Assembly: GCF_020889785.1 (NCBI RefSeq)
Contig: NZ_JACMYK010000025.1
Coordinates: forward strand, 1 to 64,000
Source: Bradyrhizobium acaciae
GTDB taxonomy: Bacteria; Pseudomonadota; Alphaproteobacteria; Rhizobiales; Xanthobacteraceae
Length of the DNA: 64,000 nt
Direction: 5' to 3'
The notes beneath the pieces were generated by a model, which saw only the letters and a list, made by a program, of their open reading frames with translations, searched no databases and was not told the DNA's origin. Shown here one piece after another: positions 37,455 to 46,753 of this stretch (position 1 is the stretch's first letter; the number at the start of each line of letters is the position of its first letter). The position numbers and the translations under genes were made by a program.

Positions 37455-37868
37455 ATGCGTTTAGCAGTCTTTGCACTTGTTGCCGTCGGCGCCGCCGGCA
37501 TCGCGATCTACGATCAATACGACAAGGGTACGAATTATCAGCGTGTCGATGCACGCATCAGCGCCGTCAACGACCAATGCTATCTGGAGAAGGTCGAGCG
37601 CGGTGTCATCACCAAGACGACGTGGACCTCCGACCTGACCCGCTGCGAAGTCGCGGAGCTGCTGCGCAAGGAGCATCCCAAGTGGCACGGCTATGACCTG
37701 AGGCACAAAATCGAGGTGCGTGTGGTCTACGTCTCGCCGGTCGATGGCATCTCGCATCAGTCGAGCCTGGAGATGTCCTACTTCCCCAACGGCAAGCCGC
37801 TGCGCGCCGGCGACGTGTTTCCGGTGCTGGCCTCCAAGACCAAGGCTGACAAGACCCGCATGGTCTGA
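37455..37868 (+). CDS. Hypothetical membrane-anchored protein, tandem paralogue 1
   Basis: A 137-residue protein with one N-terminal hydrophobic helix (MRLAVFALVAVGAAGIAIYD) followed by a periplasmic or soluble domain. The order DARISAVNDQCYLEK, LTRCEVAELLRKEHPKWHGY and IEVRVVYVSPVDGISHQ is repeated in the next gene, including both cysteines, so they arose by duplication and may carry a disulfide. No known domain recognised. The spacing (35 bases) and strand suggest an operon with paralogue 2. Confidence 0.8.
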   Translation: MRLAVFALVAVGAAGIAIYDQYDKGTNYQRVDARISAVNDQCYLEKVERGVITKTTWTSDLTRCEVAELLRKEHPKWHGYDLRHKIEVRVVYVSPVDGISHQSSLEMSYFPNGKPLRAGDVFPVLASKTKADKTRMV

Positions 37869-37903: not shown

Positions 37904-38356
37904 ATGCGGCTTGGCCTCTACGGGATCATCGCCATCGGCGTCGCGGGCCTCTATGCCTACATCGAGCTCGACAAGCGGGTGAACTTCCGTCCGATCGACG
38001 CGCGCGTCAGCAGCGTCAAAGAGCAATGCTACATGGAAAAGACGGAAGGAAATCGGAGCTCGGCGTCCGATCTCCTGCCGTGCGAACTGACTGAGCTTCT
38101 GGTGCGCAACCATCCGAAATGGCAGGGCTATGACATCAAGCACAAGATCGAGATCCGGTTTGCCTACATCTCACCGGTGGACGGCGCCGCACATGAATCG
38201 AACCTGCAACTGGCGGCGTATCCCGATGACCGGCCGCTGCACGCCGGCGACATCTTTCCGGTCCAGGCGTCCCGGAAGGAGGCCAACAGGACCCGGGCCA
38301 ACGATTGGCTGGACCGGCGGCTCGGCCGCGATGCGCCCAGACACGGAAGCATCTAG
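37904..38356 (+). CDS. Hypothetical membrane-anchored protein, tandem paralogue 2
   Basis: A 150-residue protein similar along its whole length to the preceding gene: N-terminal helix (MRLGLYGIIAIGVAGLYAYI), DARVSSVKEQCYMEK, LPCELTELLVRNHPKWQGYD, IEIRFAYISPVDGAAHES and DRPLHAGDIFPVQASRK. Both cysteines are kept. It has an extra C-terminal 13 residues. The function is unknown. It converges with the glycosyltransferase gene, whose stop lies 24 bases away, but nothing shows a functional link. Confidence 0.8.
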   Translation: MRLGLYGIIAIGVAGLYAYIELDKRVNFRPIDARVSSVKEQCYMEKTEGNRSSASDLLPCELTELLVRNHPKWQGYDIKHKIEIRFAYISPVDGAAHESNLQLAAYPDDRPLHAGDIFPVQASRKEANRTRANDWLDRRLGRDAPRHGSI

Positions 38357-38379: not shown

Positions 38380-40356
38380 CTAAACGCCGATAAACCCGCG
38401 GCGCAGCAATCCCGCCAGAGCGCCGCGAAGACTGGCGACGCCGGCAATGTTATCTTGAGACGCGCTGAAGAGCCGCACCACCAGGCGCTGATGCTGTTCG
38501 GCGCTCGGCTCAAGGCGCGCCAGCACCGTGTGGCCGGAGCGCGAGACCATGGAAACGTCGATCCATCCCAGCCCCTCCAGGTGAATTTTATAGCGCCAGC
38601 CGGCAAGCTCGAGCGTCTCGCCAGCCCCGCCCACGAGCCGCACCGAGGATGGCGATATTGCGAGCAGGCGGCACGAAAGGATTTTTCCTTCGTCGGCGAG
38701 CCAGACAAGCTCGTCCGTCTCGAACATGTGACTGGAACGCGGCACTTCGAAGCAGACCAGAAACGCGATGAAGGCGATCAGCATCGCGATGGCCGCCCAC
38801 AACAGGTTGAAGAAATCGAGAGAGGATATCTCGTCGGCGGCGTACGGGGAGATGAACTCCCATATGATGCTGGCGGCAGAGCTTGCCGCGATCAACCCAA
38901 AGATGGCGGCGAGCTTCCACTGAACGCGCGGCGCGGATCGATCGCCTCCCTTGTCGGTGATTTTGAAGGGGCGTCCGAATGGCTTGAAGATGGCAGTGAA
39001 CAGGGTTGCGGTCACCGCAAAGCAGGTGACGGCGTGGGTCGCCTCCATGAACAATGGCAGCGTCCGCGCGCGCGATATCCAGCTCATGTAGACAATTTGC
39101 GCGAGCAGGGCCGGCATGCCGTAGCGCAGGAAGGAATGATAGTCGGCCTCGAACGCGGGCAGCCCGCCGAACCAATAGATTGTCGGCGCGATCAACAGCA
39201 GCACCATGAATGGTTTGGAGAGCCAGTTCAGCACGCCGTGCAGATAGTGCCAGCGCTCGGTGAAGCGGAAGCCGCGGCCAAATAGCGGTCCGTTGCGCAG
39301 CAGGGCGACCTGGATGGTGCCGAGGCACCAGCGAGCTCGCTGAGTGACATATTCCGGAATGCCTTCGGCTGAAAGTCCGAAACTGAGCGGCTCGTTGAGC
39401 CAGACTGTGCGATAGCCGTGCGCCAGCATGGTGTAGGTGAGATTGATATCCTCCGAGACGGCCTGGTCGGGAAAGCCGCTGATCTCATTCAGACGGTCGC
39501 GGCGAACGACAAAGGAGGTGCCGACGCAGAATGCGCAGCCCCACGCATCCTTGGCCGGTTGAAAGATGTCGAAAAAGAAGCGCTGATCGTCGACCCAGCT
39601 CTTTTCGGCCAGCAGATTATGTTGGATCGGATCAGCGTTATAGTAAAATTGCGGGGTCTGCACGATCGCCACCTCCGGATCGGACAGCAGCAGGCCGATC
39701 GTGCGCTTCAAGAAGTCTTGCCGTGGCGCGAAATCCGCATCGAGCACCAGAATGACAGGCGCATTGGTCACGCGAGCGGTTGCGATCAACCCGTTATTGA
39801 GATTGCCCGCCTTGGCGCCCTTGTTGTCGGGCCGCGTCAGGTGACGTGCACCGACCCGATCGCAATATTCCCGCAGCCAGTCGCGTCTCGTATCATCGAG
39901 GACCCAGACCGTCGCATCGGCATAGTCGAGCGCCAGTGCGCTCAGGATCGACCGCTCGAGGATTTCGAGCGGTTCATCGTAGGTGCAGATGAAGATGTCG
40001 ACGGCCGGACTGCGATTTTCCGAAGCCAAGAGCTGTTGTGAGGCGTCGGCCTGCGCGGTGCGGTCGGTACTGCGGAACAGGATGACGATCGAGATCAGCG
40101 TGTACAGGATCGCGAGCGATTCGAACGCAATGAAGAGCCGCGGCCAAAGACTTTGCGCCGACAGCTCAAATGGCGGCAGCGTATCGTTCCACCGCCACAG
40201 CGTGTAAACGGCCAGAAGGGCCGCCGTCGTCGCCCCGAACAGGATGCGGTGGCTGGCACGCAGCGGCTCCAGCAGTCGCGCCATGACCAGAAGGCCGAGC
40301 AAAATGCCGACGTCGATGGTCAGGATCGATGAATTATCAGCGGCAGTCGGAAACAT
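38380..40356 (-). CDS. Membrane glycosyltransferase 2, BcsA/BgsA-like polysaccharide synthase
   Basis: A 658-residue processive glycosyltransferase, third gene of an operon. Two or three N-terminal helices precede the GT2 domain with FICTYDEP, VWVLDDTRR, ILVLDADFAPR, AVSEDINLTYT (acceptor Asp) and QRARWCLGTIQ (QxxRW). About four or five more helices follow. The cytosolic C-terminus, residues 536-658, has a PilZ-like outline but only one Arg in FEVPRSSHMF (no RxxxR) and no DxSxxG. Length, adaptor partner and missing PilZ signature resemble Sinorhizobium BgsA, a mixed-linkage beta-glucan synthase, or curdlan synthase, more than true cellulose synthase. The product is inferred. Confidence 0.88.
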   Translation of the reverse strand: MFPTAADNSSILTIDVGILLGLLVMARLLEPLRASHRILFGATTAALLAVYTLWRWNDTLPPFELSAQSLWPRLFIAFESLAILYTLISIVILFRSTDRTAQADASQQLLASENRSPAVDIFICTYDEPLEILERSILSALALDYADATVWVLDDTRRDWLREYCDRVGARHLTRPDNKGAKAGNLNNGLIATARVTNAPVILVLDADFAPRQDFLKRTIGLLLSDPEVAIVQTPQFYYNADPIQHNLLAEKSWVDDQRFFFDIFQPAKDAWGCAFCVGTSFVVRRDRLNEISGFPDQAVSEDINLTYTMLAHGYRTVWLNEPLSFGLSAEGIPEYVTQRARWCLGTIQVALLRNGPLFGRGFRFTERWHYLHGVLNWLSKPFMVLLLIAPTIYWFGGLPAFEADYHSFLRYGMPALLAQIVYMSWISRARTLPLFMEATHAVTCFAVTATLFTAIFKPFGRPFKITDKGGDRSAPRVQWKLAAIFGLIAASSAASIIWEFISPYAADEISSLDFFNLLWAAIAMLIAFIAFLVCFEVPRSSHMFETDELVWLADEGKILSCRLLAISPSSVRLVGGAGETLELAGWRYKIHLEGLGWIDVSMVSRSGHTVLARLEPSAEQHQRLVVRLFSASQDNIAGVASLRGALAGLLRRGFIGV

Positions 40357-41576
40357 CAGCGTATCCTCTTCCCGGTGAACGGATTCCAGCCCGTTTCAGC
40401 CAGCGCGGCCCACGCAGTCGCGCCGAGATGCGGGCGGCGGTAATAGAAAAAGTCGGGATCGCCACCGGTTGGATCGATCGATAATCCCGTCGTCAGTCGC
40501 GCCGGGCGTGCGGCATTGAGCAGGCCGGATGACGTCTGGTCCGCCTTTAGGTTACCCAGAAGCCGATCGCTCTCGTGTGTGTCGCCGACGATCCGGTAGG
40601 CCAAGGCGGCCTGCGCCGTGCCCTCCACCCAGAGGCCATCGCGATCGCCGTTGAAATCAAAGCCGCCATTGACCCCGAGGTGATCTTTCGCGAAACCGAG
40701 CGTGTTCTTCCACGCCGGGGGCGATTCAGGGATTGCCATCCAGGGCCAAAGCTGGGCGTCGAGCGCGAGCAAACCTTCGTTCGCAAGGCTGCCGTCAGGC
40801 TTGGTCCCAAGCAGGAAATGATCCCCGCGAAAAGCGCGATCGAGCAGTCGCTTGGCCTGTCCGGCCGCGCCGTCGTATTTCTGGTCGCCAGTCAGGCGAA
40901 ACAGCCAACGTGCAGCGGCGTGAACGTCGGCGTTGTGCTCGGTCGACATCCAGGTGAGCTTGACCTGCTTCGGATCGTAGCCGTGGAAGCCGCCGTAAAA
41001 GCCATCCTGCGAAGCGGTTGTGTCGATCACCCAATCGATCAGGCGCCTTGCATCGGCGAGATATTGTGGATTCCCGGTTGCCTGATGCAGCGTCAGCAAT
41101 GCCAATGCGGCCCAGGCCACGTTTCCGGTGGAGCTGCCGTCCTGCGCCGCGTCCTCCGCCCAGATATTGGCATGTCCATCCCACCAGCCGGGCAGATCGG
41201 GAACGACCTTGTTCAGCGCGCCGGCACGGTAGGCATTGCGCACGCGGCCATCATCGAAGCTGCGATCCTTGGCAACGGCGCGGCTCAGCGCGTTGCCGAT
41301 CGGTCTTGCATCCGACACGTTGCCGCAGGCAATCAGCGCAATGGCGGCGAGCGCGTTGTCGTAGACGAACGCCGTCGTGGCGAGACCCGCCGGAAGCATC
41401 GATTCATCCGTGCCGGGGTCATAGCTCCGGATGAAAACCGCGTCGGCCGCGCTTGCGCGCGGGGCGACGGCCCTTTTCAACCCAGCGCAGAAAGCGTTTG
41501 CGGTTGGGGCGGTGTGGCCCGCTGCGGGCGCGCCCAGGACGACCGCGCATAGCGTCATCACGATGGCAGACTTCAT
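40356..41576 (-). CDS. Exported alpha/alpha-toroid protein of unknown family in glycan synthase operon
   Basis: A 406-residue protein with a signal peptide ending near residue 22. The rest is a series of helical hairpins like six-hairpin glycosidases: TGNVAWAALALLTLHQATGN (about 150-170), STEHNADVHAAARWLFRLTG (211-230), LALDAQLWPWMA (270-281), WVEGTAQAALAYRI (316-329) and GATAWAALAETGWNPF at the end. Conserved-looking acids (E213, D273, E318) face such repeats. No exact family is recognised; it could trim, epimerise or bind the nascent glucan in the periplasm. Its start overlaps the HlyD-type stop by four bases and its stop overlaps the glycosyltransferase start by one, so all three are co-expressed. 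Confidence 0.85.
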   Translation of the reverse strand: MKSAIVMTLCAVVLGAPAAGHTAPTANAFCAGLKRAVAPRASAADAVFIRSYDPGTDESMLPAGLATTAFVYDNALAAIALIACGNVSDARPIGNALSRAVAKDRSFDDGRVRNAYRAGALNKVVPDLPGWWDGHANIWAEDAAQDGSSTGNVAWAALALLTLHQATGNPQYLADARRLIDWVIDTTASQDGFYGGFHGYDPKQVKLTWMSTEHNADVHAAARWLFRLTGDQKYDGAAGQAKRLLDRAFRGDHFLLGTKPDGSLANEGLLALDAQLWPWMAIPESPPAWKNTLGFAKDHLGVNGGFDFNGDRDGLWVEGTAQAALAYRIVGDTHESDRLLGNLKADQTSSGLLNAARPARLTTGLSIDPTGGDPDFFYYRRPHLGATAWAALAETGWNPFTGKRIR

Positions 41577-43030
41577 CGCGATACGAGGGCACGAGTTCCG
41601 GGCGATCCATTCTCACCGGCGGTTGGCTGCTGCGGTTGCGAGGCCCGGAATGCATCCTGCAGACGAGCGATGCCAGAACGCCGCGCATCCGCGTCCGATG
41701 ACGTGCTCTGCGCGGTGCTGATGGTGCCTGCGTCGTCCCGAATCCACGAAGCGACGAAATGGCCGAGCCGTCGCCACGTGACCGACATCGAGGGGACTAC
41801 GCCATTCTCGCGCGTCACTGTCACCCATTGGCCGACCGGACAAGCGGACGCCTCTGCCGTCGCTGCTTGCTGCACCGGTCCGCCGTCGTTCGCCGCGTCC
41901 GGGGTAATGATGGCGTAGAGCTCGCGCCGCTCGGTTTGCGGGAACGGAACGGCAAAGCGTTCATCGGTCTTGTCGCTGGTCTTCGGCACAACCGCAGTGA
42001 CGACGCCGGATCGCAACGAACTCCCGTCGATGCGGACGCGCGTGCCGGGCGTCATGCTCTGGCCCTGCCGGTAGGAGAAGATGGCGACAATAAAGGGCTT
42101 ATCACAGTTGATGACGGAGCTGATGGTGTCACCGGCGCTCACGTGCCGTCCCATCGCGGCTCCGACGGTCAATACCTTGCCCTGGCCGCGCGCAAGGACT
42201 TTGGCGTCGGCCAAAGTCGCCAGCCGTTTTTGTTCGGCGTCGATCAGCTGCTCCAGGTCGGCAAGCACGGCGGTTTGCTGCTTTTCCTCGATTTTCATCC
42301 GCATGGCGTCCAGATCGATGTCCCTGCGTTTCTGAGCCAGATTATTGAGAGCTACCAATTCGTCGCCGATATAGATGCCCTTGCTCAGAGCGTTGAGCTG
42401 TGCCGTCTTTTGATTCAGCTTGGCCACTTCTGCATCCGCGCCATGCATGGCCGCCGCATATTGCTGGGTCGTCGGCCTCAGCATGTCCATGCTCGCGGCA
42501 TTGCGTGTCACCATGTTGGTCTGTCTGTCGACCAGGGCTTTCTTTTCACTTGTCGCAGCGTTGGATTGAGCAACGCGGGCGCGAAGCTCCTCGATCTGCG
42601 ACTGGAACTGCCCCTTGAGCTGGTTTGTCTGGTCAGCGAGCTCGCCGTCGAGAGACGAAACATAGTTGACGTCCGAGTCGTATTTTGAGCGTGTCGCATC
42701 GAGCTTCTGCCGTGCGTCGGACGCCTTTTCCTGCAACGAGATGAGTGTCCCGCGGTCAAGTCTTGGATTGCTGATTTGCGCCAGCGTGTCGCCATCGTGG
42801 ACGTCACGGCCGGGGAGCGCGGTCAACAGATCGATTTCGCCACTGATTGGGGCCGTCAGAAGCGTAACGGGTGCGTTGATCACGGCGCGATCGGATTGAT
42901 CTGCGATGATCGGCGGCGCTACCGCCGTCAGCATCAGGATAGACAGCAATCCCGCGACGCCAACCGCGGATATTCTCAGTATTCCCTGATGTTTCCGCAC
43001 GGTGCCGCGGGTGTCGGATCTGTCAATCAT
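41573..43030 (-). CDS. HlyD/membrane-fusion-type periplasmic adaptor, BgsB-like
   Basis: A 485-residue protein from the ATG at 43030 (AAAGAGAGCTG upstream). One N-terminal membrane helix (residues 17-39) is followed by a lipoyl/barrel half (VTLLTAPISGEIDLLTALPG), a long coiled coil of about 100-290 (SLQEKASDARQKLDATRSK onward), and the second lipoyl half (ARGQGKVLTVGAAMGRHVSA). It resembles membrane fusion proteins that pair with polysaccharide synthases, such as BgsB with BgsA, rather than multidrug pumps. It is the first gene of the operon. The C-terminal 60 residues are low-complexity. Confidence 0.88.
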   Translation of the reverse strand: MIDRSDTRGTVRKHQGILRISAVGVAGLLSILMLTAVAPPIIADQSDRAVINAPVTLLTAPISGEIDLLTALPGRDVHDGDTLAQISNPRLDRGTLISLQEKASDARQKLDATRSKYDSDVNYVSSLDGELADQTNQLKGQFQSQIEELRARVAQSNAATSEKKALVDRQTNMVTRNAASMDMLRPTTQQYAAAMHGADAEVAKLNQKTAQLNALSKGIYIGDELVALNNLAQKRRDIDLDAMRMKIEEKQQTAVLADLEQLIDAEQKRLATLADAKVLARGQGKVLTVGAAMGRHVSAGDTISSVINCDKPFIVAIFSYRQGQSMTPGTRVRIDGSSLRSGVVTAVVPKTSDKTDERFAVPFPQTERRELYAIITPDAANDGGPVQQAATAEASACPVGQWVTVTRENGVVPSMSVTWRRLGHFVASWIRDDAGTISTAQSTSSDADARRSGIARLQDAFRASQPQQPTAGENGSPGTRALVSR

Positions 43031-43137
43031 CAGCTCTCTTTCGGTTGGGAGATTGGGAGGCCTTCGGAGCGCACTGCTTGTGGTTGGCGGACTGTTTTTC
43101 GCGGCGCCGGTTAGCGACTGCAACAATGCTGACCGCA

Positions 43138-43153
43138 TTTGGTTGCTACCAAA
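43138..43153. promoter_or_regulatory. TTTGGT-TGCT-ACCAAA palindrome upstream of the glycan operon
   Basis: The 474-base gap 43031-43504 between the glycan operon and aidB has no credible gene. It holds this perfect six-base-arm inverted repeat, 108 bases upstream of the adaptor start, in a locally AT-richer stretch. It may be a regulator site for the operon. The rest of the gap shows nothing I can name. Confidence 0.35.
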
Positions 43154-43504
43154 AATGAGGCGATGAAAATTGCAGCAAGAACGGTGGACCACAAGGGAAG
43201 TGGTTTCCAAACTGGAGGGCAGGTTCCAACTGCAAGGACGGGTGGTCAGTCGAGGTCAAAAGGGCGCTCGCAGCTTTCCGCGCCCCTGGCGACGCCGGTA
43301 TTGCGCCGCTATTGGCGCGGGCATCAGCCGCGCGGGGCAAATCAGCCCAATTCATGAATAGGGGGCCCAGCGAAAACCGTATTTTTCGCTGCCCGGCACA
43401 TCCTTGCGGGCTATGATCCCCCCGATTCCAATGCGCGACGATTGGCCCGATATCCCGACCGTTGTAGGACCAAGCGCGCAGCGAGACCCATTGCCGAGGA
43501 GACC

Positions 43505-45148: not shown

Positions 45149-45158
45149 AGGTTTGCTG

Positions 45159-45929
45159 ATGGACGCACTCAATCCCGATACTCCGCCGTCGGCGGTCGAG
45201 CCGCCGCCACTCCCGACGCGGGTCTGGAAGTTCTGGGGCACCGCGCTGTGGGGCCTGGTCATCTTCATCGCGATGTTCCTCGGCCAGGTCGCGGTCATCG
45301 TCTGGCGCATCGTCGCGCAGGGCGGGGAACTGTCGGCGGGGGGCATCACCCATGTGGTTGCCGACGGCCTGACGATCTCGCTCTCGGTGCTCGCCGGCCT
45401 GCCGATGGTGCTGCTGGTGCTGTGGTTCGCGATCCGCCGGACCAGGATATCGTTTGCCGACTATCTCGGGCTGCACTGGACGTCGTGGAGGAACGTCATC
45501 ATCGGCGTCGTTTCGCTGATCGTGCTGGTCGGCGCCTGGGACATGGTGTCCCGCGCCGCCGGCCGCGAGGTGGCGCCGGGCTTCATGGGCGACGTGCTGA
45601 AATCAGCGCAGGAACACAGCGCGCTGTGGCTTCTGGTGATCGCCTTCGCCGTCGCCGCGCCGCTCTGGGAGGAACTGTTCGCGCGCGGCTGGCTCTATCG
45701 CGGCTGGTCGGAATCCCGGCTCGGCCCGTACGGCGCAATCCTGCTGTCGTCGATCGTCTGGACCGTGATGCACCTGCAATACGACTGGTTCTTCCTTTGC
45801 CAGGTGCTGACGATCGGGCTCCTGTTCGGCTATCTGCGCTTCCGCACCGGTTCGACCTGGCTGACCATCCTGCTGCACGGCCTGAACAATTTCGCGGCGA
45901 CGATCCAGACCTGGTGGCTGGCGGGGTGA
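45159..45929 (+). CDS. CPBP family intramembrane metalloprotease
   Basis: A 256-residue membrane protein. The CPBP/CAAX-protease motifs are intact: the EExxxR element in PLWEELFARGWLYRGW, the histidine of VWTVMHLQYDWFF, and the His-Asn of LLHGLNNFAATIQ. A Pro-rich N-terminus precedes the first helix. These Rce1-like enzymes cleave in the membrane; bacterial substrates are mostly unknown. It is followed 65 bases later by a second, diverged member of the same family. Confidence 0.88.
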   Translation: MDALNPDTPPSAVEPPPLPTRVWKFWGTALWGLVIFIAMFLGQVAVIVWRIVAQGGELSAGGITHVVADGLTISLSVLAGLPMVLLVLWFAIRRTRISFADYLGLHWTSWRNVIIGVVSLIVLVGAWDMVSRAAGREVAPGFMGDVLKSAQEHSALWLLVIAFAVAAPLWEELFARGWLYRGWSESRLGPYGAILLSSIVWTVMHLQYDWFFLCQVLTIGLLFGYLRFRTGSTWLTILLHGLNNFAATIQTWWLAG

Positions 45930-45994
45930 TCGTCCGATATGTTAGGTTGAGCTCGGGCCCACCTTCGCTGCAAAATTGTTGCAGAAAAATCCAC

Positions 45995-46753
45995 ATGTCG
46001 AACTTTGAGAATGCCGGCGCGCGGATGCCTACATCGGCGCCGCCGCCCCGGACCTGGGACTTCTGGGAGACGGCGCTCGTCACTCTGATCGCCTACGGCG
46101 TCTATACGTTGGCATCAGGGTTAGCCTTGACGCAGATACTTGCTCTGCAAGACGGCGTAGCCAAGATGCCGCCGGCTCAATTGCGGGATTTCGCGGCCCA
46201 AGGACGATGGTCCGGCGCGGCCCTGATCATCGCGAGCCCGTGCACGATCGCCGTGCTTTGGATCGCGATCCGCGCGGCTGGCCGAGGGTTCTCCGAATAC
46301 CTTGCGCTCAACTGGCCGAGCGCGACCGAGACGGCGATTGGCTTTGGGGTCTTCGCGGGCCTTTTGGTGCTTGAGTCGATTATCTCATGGTACATCGGAG
46401 CAGACTATGCACCGATGAATGGGTTTCTCATCGTCAGAAGCTCGGGTGGCTTGCTCATCCTCTTGATCGCAGGCTGCGTCGCTGGACCGATCATGGAGGA
46501 ATTCATCATCCGCGGCTTTTTGTTTCGCGGTTGGTCACAGTCTTTCCCAGGTCCGATTGGAGCCATCATTTTGACGTCGATCGCCTGGGCGATGACGCAT
46601 GTTCAATTCGACTTTTCTGGAAAATTCTTGATTTTCGGGATGGGGTTGGCTCTCGGATATTCTCGCTGGCGCAGCAACTCGACCTGGCTGACCGTGATGG
46701 TGCATTCGACCTTCAACATGTTCCTGTTGTTTACAACAGGCCCATACGTCTAA
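45995..46753 (+). CDS. CPBP family intramembrane metalloprotease, second copy
   Basis: A 252-residue paralogue of the preceding gene with the same architecture: TWDFWETALVTLIAYGV at the first helix, IMEEFIIRGFLFRGWSQSF (EExxxR), WAMTHVQFDFSGKF and VHSTFNMFLLF. The base composition is clearly less GC-rich than the neighbours (many TTT, ATT and AAA codons), and identity with copy one is limited, so it may be an acquired gene rather than a recent duplicate. Substrate unknown. A hairpin terminator follows. Confidence 0.87.
   Translation: MSNFENAGARMPTSAPPPRTWDFWETALVTLIAYGVYTLASGLALTQILALQDGVAKMPPAQLRDFAAQGRWSGAALIIASPCTIAVLWIAIRAAGRGFSEYLALNWPSATETAIGFGVFAGLLVLESIISWYIGADYAPMNGFLIVRSSGGLLILLIAGCVAGPIMEEFIIRGFLFRGWSQSFPGPIGAIILTSIAWAMTHVQFDFSGKFLIFGMGLALGYSRWRSNSTWLTVMVHSTFNMFLLFTTGPYV

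Follow-up and report, generated by a model that had tools for sequence, protein, structure and literature searches.

The window analyzed here is a stretch of 64,000 nucleotides (nt) of Bradyrhizobium acaciae, and our subject is a three-gene operon on contig 25 of its 8.47-Mb genome. The operon spans positions 43030 to 38380 on the minus strand and is transcribed in the order adaptor, middle gene, synthase. It is a real, conserved and intact operon of a known kind, the crd operons of curdlan synthesis, and its surprise is the middle protein, a homolog of CrdC. The genes and features are as follows.

41573 to 43030, minus strand: crdA-like gene, periplasmic adaptor of the HlyD/membrane-fusion type, 485 amino acids (HlyD_3 match; CrdA similarity).
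41573 to 41576, minus strand: ATGA overlap of 4 nt between the adaptor stop and the middle gene start (read from the sequence).
40356 to 41576, minus strand: crdC-like gene, exported protein with a predicted (alpha/alpha)6 toroid, 406 amino acids, candidate periplasmic glycoside hydrolase (CrdC similarity; structure model).
40356 to 40356, minus strand: TGATG overlap, 1 nt common to the middle gene stop and the synthase start (read from the sequence).
38380 to 40356, minus strand: crdS-like gene, GT2 processive beta-glucan synthase, 658 amino acids (CrdS similarity; tree; linkage residues).
38383 to 38760, minus strand: C-terminal cytoplasmic domain of the synthase, with a PilZ-like fold and without the RxxxR and [DN]x[SA]xxG motifs (motif count; model).

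Reading out the two junctions confirmed the proposal of a preliminary description, drawn from the sequence, that the overlapping frames form one unit. The HlyD-type adaptor of that description also stood, as the first protein scores 32.6 bits against Pfam HlyD_3 (cut-off, 22.2); it has one N-terminal membrane segment by eye. Likewise, no protein of the BcsB, BcsZ or BcsC families was found among the 3 operon proteins and the 10 neighboring proteins scanned, a result whose scope is this neighborhood.

The synthase carries the GT2 motifs DxD (206 to 208), SED (301 to 303) and QxxRW (339 to 343). A passage of PMC6821405 describes residues that set the curdlan synthase CrdS apart from the cellulose synthase BcsA; at five such positions, mapped by alignment, the window synthase has Q, K, H, W and H, which is the CrdS letter in all five. 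Because of this agreement, we searched for a true crd operon, using the crd primers printed in the available part of PMC4327974. The crdC reverse primer translates as IDSELW, a motif of the middle-protein family. A first in-silico polymerase chain reaction (PCR) was weak: on an Agrobacterium plasmid locus (L047), the crdA-5' and crdC pairs gave products of exact length in the expected genes, at the cost of 8 and 10 mismatches, while the crdA-5' pair fitted by chance from 11 mismatches on, the other crdA pair fitted by chance only, and the crdS pair fitted none of the loci then tested. A crdR primer tried as a marker for Agrobacterium matched 63 of 101 genomes and gave no discrimination. One crdC primer, with at most 2 mismatches allowed, gave a single match (genome G940) among 39 genomes of one genus, and this locus, L177, fits the five published primer pairs at their published sizes of 227, 179, 248, 395 and 607 bp with 0, 0, 2, 1 and 1 mismatches (for the two primers of each pair: crdA, 0/0; crdS, 0/0; crdC, 2/0; crdA 5' end, 0/1; promoter, 1/0). 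The crdA gene of L177 is exactly 1458 bp, the length given in a figure legend of PMC10819609, and its synthase has the AtumCrdS residues at the numbers printed in the accessible part of PMC6821405 in 16 of the 16 checked. An Na+/H+-antiporter-like open reading frame, read by eye from the sequence, adjoins crdA, and its counterpart AGRO_1846 stands beside crdA in a gene table of PMC3293034. From the primers, the crdA length, the CrdS residues and the antiporter-like neighbor, we identify L177 as the crdASC operon itself or one very similar to it, and we infer that its genome is Agrobacterium.

Against this reference, all three window proteins have a homolog. The middle protein is 41% identical to CrdC of L177 over nearly its full length (E 1e-84). 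The synthase is 48.5% identical to CrdS over 660 columns, again nearly full length, compared with 39% for the second synthase of the strain, 34.5% for BgsA and 30% for Escherichia coli BcsA. The adaptor is 32% identical to CrdA over 408 columns (E 3e-51), with the similarity covering residues 10 to 394 of 485, and far weaker matches to CrdA were given by BgsB (E 3e-11) and the second adaptor of the strain (E 8e-10). CrdA itself belongs, as judged by its sequence, to the HlyD-type adaptors. Therefore, together with the synthase clade and the histidine sites described below, we file the operon as crd-type in the order crdA-crdC-crdS (A-C-S). The three genes run in one direction, and the crdC-like gene shares its last nucleotide with the crdS-like gene; gene order was not taken as defining. 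Our own working view of a new kind of three-gene system was dropped after this comparison. The preliminary description had used crdASC as a mere contrast, from which the added middle protein would set the operon apart, and had offered it as a candidate for a little-described system; both points fell with the homology of all three proteins to L177.

In an IQ-TREE tree of 49 synthases, 30 rows including the window synthase and CrdS of L177 lie on one side of a branch with support of 100/100. The other groups, namely a paralog clade of 11 rows, BgsA with 2 and the cellulose synthases with 6, each lie on one side of a branch, and the nearest sampled neighbor of the CrdS clade is the paralog clade (95/92, midpoint root). 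This tree omits 8 rows of an earlier 55-row set, either near-copies or long branches (L140 and L145), and adds 2; the 55-row tree, built without CrdS of L177, had already resolved into these four groups. Against the NCBIfam cellulose synthase model TIGR03030, the window synthase reaches 341 bits, less than half of the cut-off of 699. Thus, the expected glucan synthase was recovered as a GT2 enzyme of the CrdS clade, the operon is distinct from a cellulose operon as described, and the firm grouping with BcsA that would have spoken against that description did not occur, whereas its label "BgsA-like" holds for length only, since BgsA forms a separate clade. For the linkage residues, Q, K and W occur in the paralog clade too, so only the two histidine sites are telling: His at the CrdS H374 site is found in 33 of 34 CrdS-clade rows and at the H442 site in 24 of 34, with none in the 21 rows outside for either site. 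According to a passage of PMC6821405, a clade 4 of synthases of unknown nature exists in alpha-, beta- and gammaproteobacteria.

The genes also keep together across genomes. In the genus scan (265 genomes), 27 genomes have a synthase ortholog of at least 64% identity, and a middle-gene match lies 2 to 5 nt away in all 27. Searched by itself, the middle protein matched 75 of these genomes: 29 have a match of at least 64%, 42 a full-length match at 38 to 42% and 5 only fragments, with G194 counted under both of the first two; two genomes, G085 and G099, carry it at 66 to 68% identity without adaptor or synthase in the 15 to 16 kb inspected and without a synthase match in the genome at E ≤ 1e-60. 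Among 101 Rhizobiaceae genomes, 4 have the synthase at 48% or more, and the same 4 alone have the middle gene (E ≤ 1e-30), adjacent in every case; among 297 genomes of the order, the synthase is found at 44% or more along most of its length in 4, each with an adjoining middle gene, and 2 further genomes have the middle gene alone. A wider scan of named genomes with the middle-protein alignment returned at least 575 relatives, and among the best 80 loci, 47 have all three genes and 33 the middle gene alone within the stretch of DNA covered. The 27 genus orthologs and the 47 complete loci indicate an association beyond chance, as the neighborhood comparison across Rhizobiales suggested in the preliminary description was meant to reveal.

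Of the complete loci, 46 have the order A-C-S and one has A-S-C, which is additionally seen in L047, L055, L170 and L177. They come from Bradyrhizobium, Nitrobacter, Methylobacterium, Methylorubrum, Bosea, Microvirga, Ensifer/Sinorhizobium, Rhizobium, Phyllobacterium, Cupriavidus and a Pandoraea metagenome-assembled genome, among others, and annotated plasmid records show A-C-S in Nitrobacter hamburgensis (L045) and Phyllobacterium (L048) and A-S-C in Agrobacterium (L047) and Rhizobium (L055). The nearest relative (L025) is 93 to 96% identical in all three proteins, and the nearest named copy of the middle protein, at 96%, is that of B. embrapense. No fourth constant gene was found, since the clusters present in at least 3 of 23 complete loci (flanks of about 6 kb) were the three genes and shadow frames, with the adaptors split over more than one cluster. 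An apparent CrdS relative without CrdC (G443) was set aside, as its synthase is nearer the paralog type (51% to SYN2) and lies at a contig end. These results extend the curdlan-type operon to Bradyrhizobium, Nitrobacter, Methylobacterium, Bosea, Microvirga and Cupriavidus; in the Nitrobacter, Phyllobacterium, Agrobacterium and Rhizobium records opened, the CrdS-type synthases are labeled "cellulose synthase". We found no report of a crd operon in Bradyrhizobium in a limited search of the open-access literature: in the available parts of PMC4070871, curdlan and Bradyrhizobium meet only via a reference, and the mention in those of PMC4327974 is general.

CrdC, so far of unknown function, gains from this analysis a family, a predicted fold and candidate residues. 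No Pfam or NCBIfam family was matched above threshold by the middle protein or the 10 relatives scanned, and NCBIfam gave no match for them even at E ≤ 1; hence, the membership in a known cellulase family that would have counted against the preliminary description did not emerge. The middle protein scores below the gathering cut-offs for GH127 (21.5 versus 24.9 bits), GH76 (18.2 versus 25.9) and GlcNAc 2-epimerase (14.7 versus 23.4), the best Pfam match across the 11 proteins being the one to GH127 (E 1.4e-4), and neither it nor its 10 relatives match GH8, the family of BcsZ, at E ≤ 1. A profile search of the PDB gave only an E of 0.07 to an endo-beta-1,2-glucanase fragment and was not used. 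The AlphaFold2 model, built on 51 sequences (50 of the 80 best loci plus the window; alignment A2), has a mean predicted local distance difference test score (pLDDT) of 92.2 and a predicted template modeling score (pTM) of 0.91, with confidence low only at residues 1 to 25, which resemble a signal peptide by eye. It consists of twelve long helices in six hairpins, in agreement with the exported alpha/alpha toroid that had been proposed between adaptor and synthase.

Comparing this model with known structures (Foldseek and VIA-align; 50 matches listed) placed it in the (alpha/alpha)6 glycosidase superfamily fold, a ring of helical hairpins with Z 29 to 31 over 304 to 323 residues. The 50 top matches listed have Z 25 to 31 and are mostly glycosidases, phosphorylases and sugar epimerases, including dextran dextrinase (Z 31.5, 3.1 Å, 323 residues), the methylmannose polysaccharide hydrolase MmpH (Z 30.4), bacterial glucoamylase (Z 29.1) and sugar 2-epimerases (Z 27 to 28), all at 8 to 14% identity. 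GH8/BcsZ is absent among these 50, which excludes nothing, and a library of viral structures, where giant-virus glucosidases were among the few good matches, was uninformative. As this fold is common to many families, it gives no substrate. Eight acidic residues (D73, D104, D142, E213, D217, D273, D313 and E318) do not vary across 52 sequences, CrdC of L177 among them, and the model places the motifs YDNA (72 to 75), TEHN (212 to 215) and EGTAQ (318 to 322), together with D273, at helix starts. E213 lies in the loop before helix 6, where GH15 enzymes carry their general acid. The GH15 base sits in the loop before helix 12; there, the CrdC family offers only D375, which is conserved almost throughout the 51 sequences of A2 but lost in the solitary Bradyrhizobium group, and the family alignments show no fully conserved Glu or Asp in this last long loop (347 to 383). 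With only D375 at that site, any assignment of the catalytic pair of CrdC would be tentative. We are confident, on the strength of the model, in the assignment of CrdC as a predicted (alpha/alpha)6 glycosidase-type protein with candidate residues. A glycosidase-type fold with invariant acids, outside every family above threshold and with copies in genomes in which no CrdS was found, is to us the new element here; no paper on CrdC as a glycoside hydrolase was found in the open-access literature, and an earlier notice of its fold is thus possible.

A periplasmic beta-glucanase is the likeliest role of CrdC. The strongest competing view, which we hold to be somewhat unlikely, is that CrdC is a glucan-binding or assembly factor that keeps a glycosidase fold and has no enzymatic activity. 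According to a passage of PMC10819609, crdC insertions abolish curdlan, an effect not necessarily expected from the loss of a clearing enzyme, and the missing invariant acid at the presumed GH15 base site (with D375 nearly invariant) points the same way. What speaks for catalysis is that the eight acids are invariant even though 17 of the 52 sequences come from genomes without a CrdS found, and that several of them sit at the N-terminal ends of helices in the model. The solitary copies bear on the same point. We searched 34 genomes (those of 32 of the 33 solitary loci, L101 being omitted, and 2 of Bradyrhizobium) for synthases: 29 have no match at E ≤ 1e-60, and the matches in the other 5 are BgsA-like in L179 (62% to BgsA), of the paralog type in L180 to L182 (47 to 50%) and, in one case, a match of 34%; G991 gave a second match besides. 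The CrdS histidines occur in none of the 4 synthases examined (L179 to L182), and no fixed partner gene of CrdC was found in the 33 loci. Having found no CrdS in these genomes, we favor a self-sufficient enzyme over a part that serves only CrdS, and the old question of CrdC becomes one that an enzyme assay can decide.

Taken together, we consider it very probable that the operon is a crd-type crdA-crdC-crdS unit, whose synthase makes a curdlan-like linear beta-(1,3)-glucan for export while CrdC clears the periplasm. Chain synthesis and membrane passage by one protein are established for GT2 synthases such as BcsA. In the mechanism we propose, CrdS would polymerize glucose from uridine diphosphate glucose (UDP-glucose) and may move the chain through its own inner-membrane channel; CrdA, anchored in the inner membrane, would take or guide the chain across the periplasm, as the HlyD family suggests, no outer-membrane partner having been found near the operon. 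The exported CrdC would most likely degrade glucan chains that stray or stall in the periplasm, much as AlgL acts on alginate and BcsZ supposedly acts on cellulose. A passage of PMC8829089 states that every operon of a synthase-dependent system includes an enzyme that can degrade the polymer, and shows that AlgL, an (alpha/alpha)5 toroid, clears the periplasm; for curdlan, CrdC would fill that place and, if so, would supply the polymer-cutting enzyme still missing from the pathway. The bcsABZ and alginate operons serve here as a working analogy only, the point of similarity being a periplasmic enzyme, encoded with the synthase, that degrades the polymer; unlike bcsABZ, the window operon has no BcsB beside it and a CrdC without a GH8 match.

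Several points weigh against this reading. In 10 of the 34 CrdS-clade rows, H442 is lacking, so the clade may not make one single product. HlyD adaptors are common, and the identity to CrdA is low at 32%; BgsB and the second adaptor also match CrdA, though far more weakly. With respect to Agrobacterium crdASC (Atu3055-3057; AGRO_1847-1849), the window operon is alike in the homology of all three proteins, the synthase clade, the five linkage residues, a synthase without a Pfam PilZ match and three genes in one direction; it differs in gene order (A-S-C there, A-C-S here), in the 32% identity of CrdA and in genus. CrdC stands without adaptor or synthase beside it in 33 of the 80 loci and is thus not specific to the curdlan pathway, and the naming of L177 depends on primers and literature values. 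Furthermore, the linkage residues come, as far as the relevant part of PMC6821405 goes, from sequence comparison and modeling in that single paper and not from mutants.

On these grounds, the operon might be crd-type by descent and make another beta-glucan, of mixed linkage, short or branched. The 48.5% identity to CrdS leaves about half of the residues changed, members of the clade differ at the H442 site, and the linkage residues have the origin just given in PMC6821405; the window synthase, however, has all five CrdS-type residues and shares its branch with CrdS, and we regard a different product as improbable. Still less probable, in our estimate, is an operon that the strain no longer uses. 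A passage of PMC10819609 states that C58 has crdASC yet makes no quantifiable curdlan in standard laboratory conditions, and a scan for one promoter type found no promoter-like site in 43000 to 43500; against such a relic stand three intact, overlapping frames and the 93 to 96% identity of L025 in all three proteins. A cellulose (bcs) or mixed-linkage glucan (bgsBA) operon, which the subthreshold match to the cellulose synthase model and the HlyD adaptor shared with bgsBA might suggest, is refuted to the point of being hardly credible by the separate clades, the CrdC homology, the residues and the lack of neighboring BcsB, BcsC and BcsZ partners, bgsBA having no CrdC beside it in the annotated locus L051.

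The two nearest look-alikes illustrate the difference. Like the crd-type operon of the window, Sinorhizobium meliloti bgsBA has an HlyD-type adaptor adjoining a GT2 synthase that is similarly long and gives no Pfam PilZ match; however, its synthase is in a separate clade and has P and G where CrdS has its two histidines. A second pair in the same genome (G000:C164:11745-15124, L002) also combines an HlyD adaptor with a BcsA-like synthase, but has an intact PilZ domain (43.4 bits; cut-off, 22.5), D and Q at the histidine sites and no CrdC in the 3.4 kb up to the contig end. Pairs similar to L002 lie on plasmids of B. elkanii USDA 61 (synthase 92% identical) and B. japonicum CNPSo 29.

The regulation of the synthase was examined through its C-terminal 126 residues, which gave no Pfam PilZ match at E ≤ 1. 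A domain model built from 20 loci and the window (L119 and L126, with longer ends, were omitted) has a pLDDT of 79 and a pTM of 0.65, and its closest fold matches are PilZ domains, including that of BcsA (Foldseek E 1.4e-4; best Z 12 to 13, level with MapZ). Both motifs for cyclic diguanylate (c-di-GMP), RxxxR and [DN]x[SA]xxG, are absent from the window synthase, so the pattern of a PilZ-controlled synthase is not seen. Within the CrdS clade, both motifs are in place in 5 of 5 Cupriavidus rows, and the single Cupriavidus synthase scanned matches Pfam PilZ (32.9 bits; cut-off, 22.5), while none of the other 30 rows, including CrdS of L177, has both; in 7 of these 30, the pattern search finds a single motif, mostly at the wrong position. 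It seems that the alphaproteobacterial branch has lost the classic c-di-GMP switch, and the c-di-GMP basis of the staining of mutant glycans under raised c-di-GMP, which had been proposed as a check, is weak. However, a passage of PMC5567048 reports that BgsA binds c-di-GMP without PilZ motifs, so c-di-GMP control of the window synthase may still exist. The clade thus offers a natural comparison of CrdS-type synthases with and without the switch. In its widest form, our proposal is that CrdC founds a new glycoside hydrolase (GH) family of periplasmic (alpha/alpha)6 beta-1,3-glucanases or transglucosylases, which would correspond to AlgL and BcsZ and, in many bacteria that do not produce curdlan, would act on their own, and that the PilZ switch of the alphaproteobacterial synthase has turned to another ligand or to none; we advance it tentatively.

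Several observations concern the wider family. A second CrdC-like protein (38 to 42% identity) is widespread in Bradyrhizobium, with no adaptor or synthase beside it in the 8 loci L037 to L044 (L037 spanning only 3.6 kb), and one genome (G222; L032:7838-12025) has a duplicated CrdC gene flanking crdA in the order C-A-C-S. Solitary members occur in Azospirillum and its relatives (L046, L054 and Azospirillaceae loci in L084 to L128), where no fixed neighbor was found; that of A. thermophilum lies near hydrogenase genes. CrdC-like stretches with 31 to 32% identity are present on Kitasatospora (L053:6171-9023) and Streptomyces (L052) plasmids, and as the Kitasatospora gene encodes about 950 amino acids, the domain is found in larger proteins too. 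The A-S-C operon of L047 lies on the Agrobacterium plasmid pAt1 (cl001), its synthase 82% identical to CrdS of L177; pAt1 is typed as conjugative, and crd-type operons may therefore travel.

Around the operon in the window, the upstream side carries a divergent acyl-CoA dehydrogenase of the AidB type, and the downstream side, on the opposite strand, an M15 peptidase and two small genes that match no Pfam family. The adjacent small proteins at 37455 to 37868 and 37904 to 38356 (137 and 150 amino acids), convergent with the operon and without a Pfam family, have hydrophobic N termini by eye and look similar to each other, apparently through tandem duplication. Two neighboring CAAX-protease-like (Rce1-like) genes at 45156 to 46753 apparently form another tandem pair.

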